A stretch of DNA of 64,000 nt from Erwinia aphidicola (lineage in GTDB: Bacteria > Pseudomonadota > Gammaproteobacteria > Enterobacterales > Enterobacteriaceae), in the NCBI RefSeq assembly GCF_014773485.1, contig NZ_JACXBP010000005.1:62001-126000 (forward strand), read 5' to 3'. Both the position numbers and the translations under genes were made by a program. Positions 37,267 through 42,516 of this stretch are shown in pieces; positions within the stretch are counted from its first letter, which is position 1, and each line of letters starts with the position of its first letter. The notes under the pieces were generated by a model. That model was not told the origin of the DNA, made no database searches, and was given only the letters and a program-made list of their open reading frames with translations.

Positions 37267-37587
37267 ATGAATAAGTTCTCTATGGTACTACTGACAGCCG
37301 CAATGACTCTGGGCAGCACCGCTGCAATGGCCGACGGTTCAGCAAATGCAGCGGCCGATGCCGGCGCAGTGGCTGGCAGCGCAAAAGAAAATATTGCGCC
37401 TAACAAAGTTGATAACGACAAAATCAACACTGGCCATGAAACCCAGCATAAAACCATGAAGCACCATAAGAAAATGAGTGCTGATGAGATCAACAAAAAC
37501 ACGCAGTGCAAAGATGGCAAATGTCCGGACATTAACAAAAAAGTCGGCGCTGATGCGAATACCAAAACTGACGGTACTTCGCAGTAA
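37267..37587 (+). CDS. ybgS: YbgS-like small periplasmic protein
   Basis: This 106-residue protein has a signal peptide ending AMA (cleavage about residue 22) and a hydrophilic mature part. The motifs [32 protein letters not shown] and TKTDGTSQ match E. coli YbgS as remembered (126 residues). The two cysteines in CKDGKC could form a disulfide or bind metal. The function is unknown. It sits beside aroG as in E. coli, divergent from it. Confidence 0.9.
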
Positions 37588-37631
37588 CGTTTGTTAAGTT
37601 CTGGCTGGCTGATTCTGGCTCGCTGAAAAAG

Positions 37632-37698
37632 AATCTGGCTGACCGGAAATCTGGCTAACCGGAAATCTGGCTGACCGAAAAAGAGGGTCAGCCACTAC
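37632..37698. repeat. 16-bp tandem repeat running into a REP-like palindrome
   Basis: AATCTGGCTGACCGGA is repeated at 37632, 37648 and 37664 with one change per later copy. The third copy forms the left arm of GGCTGACC/GGTCAGCC (37669-37693, loop GAAAAAGAG), followed by ACTACA. The tandem copies look like slippage duplications of a REP arm. Confidence 0.85.
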
Positions 37699-37781: not shown

Positions 37782-37813
37782 AGGAGAGCTTCGGCTCTCC
37801 TTTTCTCGTTTTT
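37782..37813 (+). terminator. Terminator after ybgS
   Basis: AGGAGAGC-TTCG-GCTCTCCT, an 8-bp stem with a stable TTCG tetraloop, is followed by TTTCTCGTTTTTTT. It lies just before the response-regulator gene and separates it from ybgS. Confidence 0.9.
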
Positions 37814-37865
37814 TTCCCGCCCACCTTCGGCTATCCTGAACCCCCTGCCTGATTTGGAACTGTTC

Positions 37866-38453
37866 ATGACCACCCTATTGCTGATTGACGATCATCCGCT
37901 GGTCCAGGTGGCGCTGGAAGCGGCCCTGGTTCACGCGCCCTTCCCGCTTAAGCTGCTGGCGGCGGATAATCAGCGCGATGCCCTGGCGCTGCTCGGCGAT
38001 CGCGCTATTGGGCTGGTGATCCTCGATATTGGCTTACCGGACAGCGACGGCTTACAGCTGCTTAAGCTGATTAAGCGCCATTACCCGCCACTGCCGGTGG
38101 TGATCTACTCAGCACAGGAGGAGCAGGTCTATCCGCGTCTGGCGGAAGCTGCCGGGGCATCTGGCTATGTTGCCAAGCGTCAGCCGCTCAGCCAGCTGCT
38201 CTCCGCCATCCTTGCCGTGCTCGGCGGCCAGCGCGTCTTCCCTGCCCAGCATGGCGATACGCTTAACGCGGTGTTGACGGCCAAAGAGCAGCAGATCCTC
38301 GCGCTGCTGGCGCGCGGCCTGTCTAATCTGCAGATCGCCGGGCAGCTGCATATCAGCAATAAAACCGTCAGCACCCATAAAAAGAACATCATGGAAAAAA
38401 CCGGAGCGGGCTCGGTCGTCGAACTGGCTCAGCTGTGGCAGTCACAACAGTGA
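37866..38453 (+). CDS. EvgA/BvgA-like response regulator
   Basis: This is a 195-residue NarL/LuxR-type regulator. The receiver has acidic DDHP at residues 8-11, phospho-acceptor Asp54 in LVILDIGLPDSDG and Lys in SGYVAKRQPL. The C-terminal HTH reads LTAKEQQILALLARGLS, then NLQIAGQLHISNKTVSTHKK. The start at 37866 follows GGAA. It overlaps the sensor kinase gene and is its evident partner. Confidence 0.93.
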   Translation: MTTLLLIDDHPLVQVALEAALVHAPFPLKLLAADNQRDALALLGDRAIGLVILDIGLPDSDGLQLLKLIKRHYPPLPVVIYSAQEEQVYPRLAEAAGASGYVAKRQPLSQLLSAILAVLGGQRVFPAQHGDTLNAVLTAKEQQILALLARGLSNLQIAGQLHISNKTVSTHKKNIMEKTGAGSVVELAQLWQSQQ

Positions 38454-41400
38454 GAACGCTACTGCTGATGCTGCTGCTGTTCACCAGCAGCGCGCTGGCG
38501 GCGCTGCGCCCGGTGAGCAGCATCGCCCTGCCGCAGGAGATGATGCCGATGCCGGTCGAATGGGGAAAAACCCTGCGCGTCGGCGTATTACAGGACAACA
38601 GCTCGCCGTGGAATATTGTCGTTGGCAGCGACCTGTACGGTATCAATGCCGACTATCTGGTGGCGCTGCAGCAGACCAGCGGCCTGCACGTCAGCGTGCA
38701 GGGGTTCAGCACGCAGCAGGCGATGATGGCGGCACTGCAGAGCGGAAAGCTGGATGTGCTGTTTGGCGTTCCGCAGCAGACGCTGCCTGCGGGCCTCAGC
38801 GCGACGCAACCGTGGTTCTCCAGCCCGCTGCGTATTTACCGTAATCGCAATAACCTGCGGCCGGTGATGTTCAACTCTGGCGATGCCCGCCTCAGCGTCA
38901 GCCGCGACACCCTGGCGCGCGTTGACCCCGAGTTTGCGCGCAAGCATCACTGGCAGGTGCTGCCCAGTGATTTACAGGCCCTCTCCACCCTGCTCAATCA
39001 GCACAGCGACTATGTGGTGGCGGATGAGACCAGCGCCGGATTCCTGCTGAGCCAGCTGCAGCAGGGCGAAGTTTATCAGCTCGCCTCTTCTCTTGACCCG
39101 GGGGTGCTGCAGCTGGAGGCGGTCACAGCGGATGCCACACTGGCGCAGCAGCTTGATAACGCTATTCGTCAGCTGCCGATGGAGGTGGTGAACGGCATTC
39201 AGGGGCGCTGGAGCAGTGCGCTGCCGCGCTATCAGGACAGCAATACCGCCCACCTGACGCCGATGGAGCGCAGCTGGATTGCGCAGCATCCGGTGGTGAT
39301 TTATGCCGCCGTCAGCGACGACTATCCGTGGAGCTACCGCAATGCCAGCGGGCAGCCCGCCGGTTACAGTGTTGACCTGCTGAACAGCATCGGCCAGATT
39401 ACCGGGTTGCGCTTTCAGCCATACTGGGTCAGCAATGCACAGCAGGCGGGCGCGCTGGTGCAGCAGGGGCGGGCGTTGATCCAACTCAATCTGCCGCTGA
39501 CCGGTGATGATGCAATGCTGAATAATACCCAGCCGGTGTGGCGTGCGCTGTGGGGAGTCTATGTTCAGGCGGCGGCGCAGAACGTCACCGGCTGGCCGGA
39601 TCTGCGCGGTAAACGCATCGGCGTGCTGCGCGGGGATATCGCCGGGCGCCTGTTGCCCGCAGGCAGCACAACCCAGATATTTGAGGATGCCAGCAGCCTG
39701 TACGATGCGCTGGCCAGCGGTCAGATCGACGCGCTGGTCGACAATGTGCTCTCAGCGCGCTGGCGCATCCAGGGGCGTTTTGCCAATACTCTGCAGCTGG
39801 CGTTTGCCGCCAGCGACACCGCATGGCCGGTGACCATCGGCATCGCCCCCGATCGGCCGCTGCTGCGCGCACTGCTGAATAACAGCCTGCAGCAGATCCC
39901 AGCGGAAAGCTGGCAGCGGCTGCGCGAAACCTGGAGCAGCACGCCGGACAGCTTTAGCGATAGCAACAGCGGCGAGATGCGGCCGATCTCCCTCTTCGTA
40001 CTGGTCGCCGCGCTGTTTGCCATCGTCTTCCTGCTGATCCTGCTGCTGAGACGCTATCTGGAGCAGCGGCGTGAGCGGCAGCAGCGCCTGCTGCTGGAGC
40101 AGGAGCGCGAAGTGGCCCAGCGGGAAAACCGCATGAAAAGTCAGTTCCTCGCCACCGTCAGCCACGAGCTGCGCACGCCGATGCAGGCGGTGCTGGGCCT
40201 GCTGGAGCTGGAGCTGATGCAGCAGCCTGAGAGCCATAACCTGGCGTTGATCCACAGCAGCGCCGCCAGCCTGATGACGCTGCTGGGCGATCTGCAGGAT
40301 CACGCCCGGGTTGAGAGCAACAGCTTCAGCTTGGCCCCCCGTCCGCTGGAGCCGGAAAAATGGCTGCAGCGGCTGGCGGTGTTCTACCACCCGCTGATGC
40401 GCGAACAGGGACCGCGGCTGAGCGTCAGCGCCCTGAATCCCCTGCCCGCCTGGGTGCTGATTGACGGCGAACGCCTGCAGCAGATTGCCAACAACCTGAT
40501 TGCCAATGCGATCAAATTTACCCGCGAGGGTGAGATCCGGCTGACGCTGGAAGCGCTGAGCACGCCGCCACAGCTGCATTTTCAGGTCAGCGATAGCGGC
40601 AGTGGCATCCCGCTGGATGAGCAGCAGCGTCTGTTTGAACCCTGGTATCAGACCCCTTCCGGTCGCCAGCTCTCGGTGCAGGGCAGCGGGCTGGGCTTGT
40701 CGATCTGCCGCGAAATTGTCAACCGCATGGGCGGCACTATCACGCTGCAATCCACCCCCGGCCAGGGAACCTGCGTCAGCGTGCTGCTACCGTGGCAGCT
40801 TATTCCCTCGCCACTGCCTGCCGCAGATGCCGAACCGCAGCAGTGCAATACCGAGGCGGTCAGCCATCTGCGCGTGGCGATTGTCGACGACCATCCGACC
40901 AATCTGCTGGTGATGCAGCAACAGCTGGCGCACTGCGGTATCCAGGCGGAAACCTTCGCTGATGGCCGGGCGCTGCTGAAAGACGGTCGCCAGTGGGACC
41001 TGCTGTTTGTTGACTACAGCATGCCGCACCCGAACGGCGTGCAGCTGGTGAAAATAGTGCGCCGTGGCGAACGCCATCAGCCGCATCATACCCGGGTGGT
41101 GCTGTGCTCTGCCGATGCGCAGATCCTCAACCGGCCACAGGCGCGACAGGTTGCTGACCGCCTGCTGGTGAAGCCAGTTTCGTTAGCGGATCTTGCCGCT
41201 CTGCTGCAGGCGGAGGCGCCCGCGCCGTTTGCCGACCTGCCGCAGCGTTTAAATCAGCTGGCGCATCACGATGAGCACTATTTTCAACGCCTGTGCCAGA
41301 CGCTGGCCGAGACGCTGAAGCGCGACTGCGCCGCGCTCAGGCAGGCAATAGCGTCAGAAGAGTGGCAGCAGGTTGAGAAAGCGGCGCACAGAATGAAAGG

Positions 41401-41563
41401 CAGCTGGCTGCTGCTGAACTACAGTGAAGGGGAAACCCTGTGCCAGCAAATCATTGAGGCTGCCCGCCTGCACCAGAACCCTAAGCCTGCAATGAATTTA
41501 TTGATATCATTAAGCGAAAGCCTGTTAACTCAATTGGGATCCTATGGCTCACACCCACACTGA
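38435..41563 (+). CDS. EvgS/BvgS-like unorthodox sensor histidine kinase
   Basis: This is a 1042-residue hybrid kinase. After a signal peptide come two periplasmic solute-binding (SBP_bac_3) domains (about 45-260 and 285-500) and one membrane helix (about 516-537). The HisKA domain has His577 in SHELRTP, the ATPase has [16 protein letters not shown] and GSGLGLSI, the receiver has Asp860 in [10 protein letters not shown], and the Hpt domain has His985 in AAHRMKGSW. No PAS domain is apparent before HisKA, unlike BvgS. The start may instead be GTG 38450 in GTGA overlap with the regulator gene. It overlaps zitB by 20 bases. Confidence 0.93.
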
Positions 41564-42476
41564 AAAGAACGGTAACCGTTCACGTCTGCTGGCAGCCTTT
41601 GTTGTCACGGCCCTGTTTATGCTGGCCGAGGTGGCGGGCGGTCTGCTCTCCGGCTCGCTGGCGCTGCTGGCCGATGCCGGGCATATGCTGACCGACGCCG
41701 CCGCGCTGCTGGTGGCCCTGCTGGCCACGCATTTTGCGCAGCGCAAGCCCAGCCAGCGCCACTCCTTTGGCTTGCTGCGCCTGACCACGCTGGCAGCTTT
41801 TGTCAATGCTATCGCGCTGCTGGTGATTACCGTGCTGATTGTCTGGGAGGCGCTGAGACGTTTCTGGCAGCCGGAGCCGGTGGCGGGTGGCATGATGCTG
41901 ATTGTGGCTATCGGCGGGCTGCTGGCAAACCTGCTGGCGTTCTGGCTGCTGCATCACGGCAGCGGCGATAAGAACCTTAACGTGCGCGCGGCGGCGCTGC
42001 ACGTGCTCGGTGACCTGCTCGGCTCGGTCGGGGCGATTGCTGCCGCGCTGATTATTATGTTTACCGGCTGGACGCCGATCGACCCCATTCTGTCGATTGT
42101 GGTGTCCCTGCTGGTGCTGCGCAGCGGCTGGATGCTGATCAAGGAGAGCGGTCACGAACTGCTGGAGGGGGCGCCGCAGGATATTGATGTGGCTAAGCTA
42201 CAGCGTGCGCTGGCGCGCAGCATCCCGGAGGTGCGTAACGTGCATCATGTGCATTTGTGGCAGGTGGGCGAGAAGCCGGTGATCACGCTGCATGTACAGG
42301 TGATCCCGCCTTACGATCATGACGCGCTGCTGCAGCGCATTCACGAGTATCTGCACCAGCATTATCAGATTGAGCACGCCACGGTGCAGATGGAGTATCA
42401 GCGTTGCGATGGCGATGATTGTGATGTGGGGTGGATTCAGGGCGGCGGCGAGCACCAGCATCACCACCACCATTAA
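41544..42476 (+). CDS. zitB: Zinc efflux cation diffusion facilitator
   Basis: ZitB exports Zn2+ from the cytoplasm by proton antiport. The 310 residues have six membrane helices with metal-site motifs [15 protein letters not shown] and HVLGDLLGS. The cytoplasmic domain has VHHVHLW, and the tail ends in a HQHHHHH run. The start lies 20 bases inside the sensor kinase gene (GGGA upstream), so zitB appears to be the third gene of a regulator-kinase-zitB unit. Confidence 0.95.
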
Positions 42477-42481
42477 CCGTA

Positions 42482-42509
42482 CGGGTCGACCCTTTTTTCG
42501 GTCGACCCG
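42482..42509. repeat. REP-like palindrome between zitB and pnuC
   Basis: CGGGTCGACC (42482-42491) pairs perfectly with GGTCGACCCG (42500-42509) around CTTTTTTC. It lies six bases after the zitB stop and eight before the pnuC stop, and may act as a transcript end for these convergent genes. It lacks a terminal T-tract. Confidence 0.85.
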
Positions 42510-42516
42510 TGGCCAA

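Follow-up and report, generated by a model that had tools for sequence, protein, structure and literature searches.

A two-component locus of the EvgAS/BvgAS type beside the zinc exporter gene zitB in Erwinia and relatives, with a promoter-like site for zitB in the last kinase codons

Layout of the locus

In the window, a stretch of 64,000 nucleotides from Erwinia aphidicola, three + strand frames are open and overlap end to end: a response regulator (RR, 37866-38453), a hybrid sensor kinase ending at 41563, and zitB (41544-42476). Is the zinc exporter thereby tied to the sensor system, or does it stand under control of its own? The original prediction took the overlaps as a sign of co-translation and proposed that the kinase may respond to a metal or metal-chelating ligand and govern zinc efflux. 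As a whole, the locus is best explained, with a probability of about 65%, as a two-component locus with a nested zitB promoter, where read-through would be an extra and the kinase signal and RR targets would lie elsewhere. The features, all on the + strand, are as follows.

37267-37587, +, ybgS, upstream neighbour; also the neighbour of zitB in E. coli K-12
37782-37801, +, terminator-like hairpin of ybgS, then a T-rich tail (consensus match only)
37830-37837, +, -10-like site GCTATCCT ahead of RR (motif common to 61/62 loci)
37866-38453, +, RR, receiver and LuxR-type HTH (frame, Pfam)
38450-41563, +, hybrid sensor kinase, 1037 aa, from GTG 38450 (alternative GTG 38435)
38558-39220, +, first periplasmic Venus flytrap domain (VFT), residues ~37-257 (model and structure match; without Pfam match)
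39251-39949, +, second VFT, residues ~268-500 (Pfam SBP_bac_3)
39992-40081, +, predicted long helix, residues 515-544, presumed membrane crossing; runs towards HisKA with no PAS between
40133-40318, +, HisKA with H572 (Pfam)
40463-40795, +, HATPase_c (Pfam)
40874-41206, +, receiver domain of the kinase with D855 (Pfam)
41291-41479, +, Hpt domain with H980 (Pfam)
41495-41512, +, extended -10 promoter-like site for zitB, stretch AATTTATTGATATCATTA, final kinase codons (TG 41502-41503, TATCAT 41505-41510; conserved)
41544-42476, +, zitB, CDF zinc exporter (NCBIfam ZitB equivalog)

The gene order around the locus is gpmA, aroG (-), ybgS, RR, kinase, zitB, pnuC (-) and nadA (-), where gpmA, aroG, pnuC and nadA are named in line with the matching order in E. 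coli K-12. In K-12, ybgS adjoins zitB with nothing between, which bears out the claim that the two-component genes are placed between them here, unlike in E. coli. The end-to-end overlap of the three frames was also confirmed, and its occurrence in 101 genomes puts the layout beyond chance. As to the lengths first given, the 20 nt for kinase/zitB are correct and the 19 nt for RR/kinase are less likely than 4 nt. The latter presuppose a kinase start at GTG 38435; GTG 38450 gives a 4-nt GTGA overlap with RR and leads directly into a signal-peptide-like stretch. Since an in-frame kinase start is present at the -4 place in 60/62 related loci versus 32/62 at the -19 place, the 4-nt overlap appears likelier.

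Repeats were observed on both sides of the locus. Short tandem repeats (a 14-nt unit twice and a 16-nt unit 3.1 times, consensus AATCTGGCTGACCGGA) occupy 37599-37681, between ybgS and its terminator. By eye, a long inverted repeat with a T run in its loop lies at 42481-42510, between the convergent zitB and pnuC; it is absent from the terminator scan's list.

Domain composition and family membership

Pfam detected Response_reg and GerE in the RR, SBP_bac_3 (one of the two VFTs), HisKA, HATPase_c, Response_reg and Hpt in the kinase, and Cation_efflux and ZT_dimer in ZitB. The exporter scored 566.4 bits against the ZitB equivalog NF002923 (cut-off 408), and its family membership suggests that it exports zinc. 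The Pfam scan found no PAS domain in the kinase, as had been predicted, and hence not the cytoplasmic PAS that characterises EvgAS. The prediction of two periplasmic binding-protein domains gained support as well: Pfam recognises only the second VFT, and the model of residues 1-545 (mean pLDDT 77.5, pTM 0.54, 23 sequences) aligns to the entire periplasmic parts of BvgS (4q0c; Z 22.8, over model residues 16-524) and EvgS (9ilw; Z 21.6). Against 4q0c the rmsd over the VFT pair was 12.7, with single-domain matches of about 3 to 4.

H572, D855 and H980 are invariant in the 9 kinases compared, so the kinase has the invariant residues of a His-Asp-His phosphorelay. With tandem periplasmic VFTs in the model, and with HisKA, HATPase, receiver and Hpt in order with their phospho-residues, it can be classed as a predicted BvgS-type VFT sensor kinase; the phosphorelay from the kinase to the adjacent RR is putative.

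Two known systems resemble the pair. EvgAS of E. coli shares the LuxR-type regulator and the tandem-VFT hybrid kinase with HisKA, HATPase, receiver and Hpt, but the pair in the window is linked to zitB and scores far below the equivalog cut-offs, that is, outside membership (RR, 88.9 bits versus 251 for EvgA NF007419; kinase, 229.6 bits versus 1995 for EvgS NF007420). EvgS is moreover described as having a PAS domain (PMC5573083), unlike the kinase of the window. BvgAS of Bordetella pertussis has the same periplasmic architecture and phosphorelay order but a different gene neighbourhood; BvgS, too, has a PAS domain, and domain composition is described as variable in its family (PMC4352136). 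In PADLOC, the RR gave weak matches to three families (best 1.3e-08), of which the two CARF models cover its HTH part, and the kinase gave no match.

Regarding the signal, an alignment of 23 sensor parts contains no invariant His or Cys; H280, a His, is almost invariant. The idea of a metal or metal-chelating ligand thus found no pointer in the sequence, which does not indicate a metal ligand, nor does it exclude one. Other EvgS-like kinases are encoded in the same genome, the best at 27-28% identity. Two of about 1100 aa stand head to tail (L002/L003, G000:C24:176069-182347), with regulator-like frames flanking both sides.

Distribution and linkage among genomes

Kinases were searched for at E 1e-150 or better. 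In a family sample of 149 genomes, nearly all of different genera, the kinase was found in 9, whose synteny was checked directly, and zitB, at 1e-80, in 76. By genus, the kinase is present in 17/37 Erwinia, 54/60 of a Pantoea-like genus (of G146) and 25/30 of a Serratia-like genus (of G025), and zitB in 37/37 (one broken), 58/60 and 26/30, respectively. The labels Pantoea and Serratia rest on the likeness of L013 and L014 to those genera's loci; close named relatives among the matches listed are Pantoea varia, Serratia bockelmannii and Erwinia persicina.

Including five further genera and with double counts removed, 101 genomes carry the kinase, with a single match each. Going by coordinates, the gene immediately downstream of the kinase, on the same contig, is zitB in 100/101. 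In the exception, G201, contig ends separate the two, and zitB's contig starts with the kinase tail before zitB. Where kinase matches stop early (e.g. G186, G188, G199, G206, G207), the rest of the kinase is present up to zitB. No kinase away from zitB was found in any of the 101 genomes at E 1e-150, and the linkage extends down to about 45% kinase identity. Plasmid-borne relatives gave no match at E 1e-80. The loci are mutually related and the counts are therefore not independent; the kinase-zitB linkage is, judging from these comparisons, real and ancient. The comparison of relatives that the original prediction had proposed thus showed both linkage and overlap to be conserved.

Among the titles and abstract starts listed, from a literature largely outside the subscription journals, none describes a two-component/zitB linkage; zitB together with BvgS gave no paper, and together with EvgS two. 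As far as these listings go, an EvgAS/BvgAS-type locus that is placed in Erwinia, Pantoea, Serratia and certain relatives between zitB and aroG (with ybgS, in genomes that have it) appears to be undescribed.

Junctions and the promoter-like site of zitB

The kinase/zitB junctions were surveyed in 62 loci, with L013-L015 left out of this and the nested-site tallies. In Erwinia, 16/17 junctions overlap by 20 or 26 nt (the remaining kinase is broken), and in the Pantoea-like genus overlaps of 23 or 32 nt were found in 19/20 (the other is disrupted); an earlier in-frame stop in L097 and L167 would make the overlap shorter. Two further genera show overlaps of 26 and 38 nt. In the Serratia-like genus, the kinase stop and zitB start share one base as TAATG in 20/20 loci, and in other Serratia-like loci (L010, L011, L012) gaps of 25, 53 and 3 nt were found. 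RNA structure at the zitB start is less stable than the shuffle mean (z 1.55).

An extended -10 sigma-70 promoter consists of TGN followed by at least 5/6 of TATAAT at a suitable distance. The stretch AATTTATTGATATCATTA makes up six kinase codons, and its core TGATATCAT at 41502-41510, 42 nt ahead of the zitB start, has this form. Loci were scored with TG fixed, at most one mismatch to TATAAT and a position 25-55 nt before the zitB start. The site was found in 40/45 Erwinia/Pantoea loci with a kinase, made up of 15/17 in Erwinia (all at -42) and 25/28 in the Pantoea-like genus (24 at -42, one at -41), and in a further 2/2 kinase-bearing loci (-36, -42). It also occurs in 13/19 kinase-less Erwinia (-39 to -42), a set that leaves aside the kinase-less L127 with its broken zitB (Erwinia G182), and in 5/22 other kinase-less loci, E. 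coli not among these. In many of the kinase-less Erwinia, the core stands in intergenic DNA. None of 25 loci of the Serratia clade and none of 3615 windows in kinase bodies has the pattern. Misses with a kinase are L096, L097, L165, L166 and L167, in addition to the 6/19 kinase-less Erwinia. Scoring covered 26 of the 54 kinase genomes of the Pantoea genus (mostly best matches) plus G222 and G238 (broken kinases below the search threshold), and, for Serratia, 20 of 25 kinase genomes plus G248 (one of the 25) and G261. A general promoter scan, which demands a -35, did not list the site.

The extended -10 in the last kinase codons can thus be regarded as zitB's own promoter-like site in the Erwinia/Pantoea clade. 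Because zitB has such a site there, retained even in loci with a lost or broken kinase, obligatory co-expression with the kinase is unsupported in Erwinia/Pantoea, and so is co-translation, as first proposed, as the link between the two genes. The original prediction had named a separate zitB promoter with no read-through as a finding that would count against it; as to the promoter, a candidate site is present in Erwinia/Pantoea and absent from the Serratia clade, which seems to fit co-expression better given this absence and the TAATG junctions in the genus.

The zitB gene of E. coli K-12 belongs to the same exporter family and has the neighbours ybgS, pnuC and nadA, but no two-component genes adjoin it. 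It has TATGAT 46 nt before its start, in an ordinary intergenic gap, below the threshold of TG plus 5 of 6. According to a review, ZitB is expressed constitutively in E. coli and acts as a first-line defence (PMC3852070), a role that an extended -10 of its own would suit. In five kinase-less loci, that of K-12 among them (L128, L140, L143, L144, L148), an imperfect palindrome, TATGATGTCATA, precedes zitB and may be more than a -10.

Codon usage at the site

Codon analyses used 34 intact Erwinia/Pantoea kinases (L097, L106, L166 and L167 left out). When the best of four adjacent windows is taken, the site ranks in the top three six-codon windows for unusual codons in 27/34 kinases and within the lowest 3.2% in 34/34; in the Serratia-like kinases the same place is unremarkable in 20/20 (rank 53 to 439 of about 1060). 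Conservation was computed from 453 of 561 pairs, those of >=75% identity being dropped. Given the same residue, codon identity is 1.00 for the ATA of the -10 (expected 0.51), 0.93 for the next codon (0.57) and 1.00 for the first codon of the site (0.63); it falls below expectation at the TTG/CTG codon within the site (0.38 versus 0.51). None of the twelve windows with the strongest codon conservation includes the site, and the nine at the top fall within the final eleven codons of the kinase, a stretch whose conservation is explained by the ribosome site and the overlap with zitB. Just upstream of the site, 12/15 codons are conserved at or below expectation, so there is no sign of a regulator site in that stretch.

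Loss and decay of the kinase

On a quick Erwinia zitB tree, kinase presence changes at least six times, two of the changes forced by starred branches; the tree itself cannot separate gain from loss. Kinase tails remaining in kinase-less Erwinia argue for loss. By eye, L122 keeps an in-frame kinase tail, NLLIQLTRYLLKKLDIYGA, and L120/L121 a frame-shifted one, and these loci retain the nested site besides. Short open kinase traces were seen in L112 and L114, and traces with stops in L108 and L109 (also by eye); L114 also shows similarity to residues 981-1034 of the kinase (E 2.8e-4). These last four loci group with the window on the zitB tree (support 85, not starred).

The kinase frame is disrupted in ten loci, in some perhaps through assembly errors, and the site is kept in 7/10. 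Among L106, L166, L187-L190, L193 and L194, all but L166 keep it (7/8); L097 and L167, with only a late stop in the kinase, do not. The site is likewise absent from L096 and L165, which are relatives of these three misses with an intact kinase.

Possible explanations

The conserved stretch might be kept for the kinase protein and not as a promoter. It does lie in the kinase C-terminal part, just past the Pfam Hpt match, and residues of the LLI/LLISL type recur there, but it persists in kinase-less genomes and in most broken kinases, its codons are unusual, variants such as TGGTATCAT, TGATAGAAT and TGTTATTAT alter the protein yet retain the -10 pattern, and Serratia kinases have other residues at this place; we regard this explanation as highly improbable. 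It is unlikely that, as originally proposed, the kinase senses a metal or metal-chelate, the RR governs zitB and the overlaps serve co-translation. The adjacency in 100/101 genomes, across kinases down to about 45% identity, and the TAATG junction in 20/20 loci of the Serratia-like genus without a nested site agree with it. They are set against the nested promoter-like site of Erwinia/Pantoea, the 20 Erwinia genomes that retain zitB without a kinase (one copy broken), the 12/15 unconstrained upstream codons and a sensor without invariant His or Cys.

The two-component genes and zitB could also be passive neighbours without a functional tie, held together by a stable, vertically inherited aroG-zitB-pnuC segment. 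That the kinase is lost or decays as zitB stays (the changes on the Erwinia tree), that broken kinases stand beside intact-looking zitB starts and that zitB has its own promoter-like site would all fit. No kinase was seen away from zitB in the 101 genomes at E 1e-150, and TAATG is invariant in the 20 Serratia-like genus loci, but both points carry little weight, as vertical inheritance predicts the same; on balance, we find a purely passive association rather unlikely. In a further reading, with the odds against it, the PAS-less VFT phosphorelay and the zinc exporter may form one module, with a basal promoter in the kinase's last codons, read-through added by the RR, and the need for the promoter shaping kinase loss down to the tail only. 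Were this so, exporter dose would be the sum of a constitutive and a ligand-driven part.

In the preferred reading, that of a two-component locus with a nested zitB promoter, the Erwinia/Pantoea locus would comprise two nested transcription units with possible read-through: zitB would be transcribed from the nested promoter, which would supply zinc export at a basal level, as has been described in E. coli, and extra zitB would come through read-through whenever the unit of RR and kinase is active. The signal of the kinase is probably a small ligand or a condition of the envelope, and the main targets of the RR presumably lie elsewhere. The Serratia-like locus would be one transcription unit, where zitB, without the nested site, is probably dependent on read-through, to which stop-start coupling would be added in the genus proper. 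The kinase and zitB are old neighbours, yet expression of the pump need not hinge on the kinase, and overlapping genes need not be co-regulated. What emerges is a sensor system that is widespread in Erwinia, Pantoea and Serratia, apparently uncharacterised, and fixed in position next to a zinc exporter. The locus may also serve, for comparative work, as an example of a promoter that lies within the end of a coding gene and is retained as that gene decays.

Region upstream of the regulator gene

The motif G[CT]TATNCT is found 36-46 nt before the RR start in 61/62 loci, versus 9/2715 background windows. In Erwinia/Pantoea, this -10-like site stands behind the ybgS terminator. By eye, no element common to the RR upstream region and the zitB site was seen. 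In many loci of the Pantoea-like genus (L151, L160, L164 and similar), an inverted repeat, CCTGTGAAATTTACAGG, spans the DNA just ahead of the RR start.
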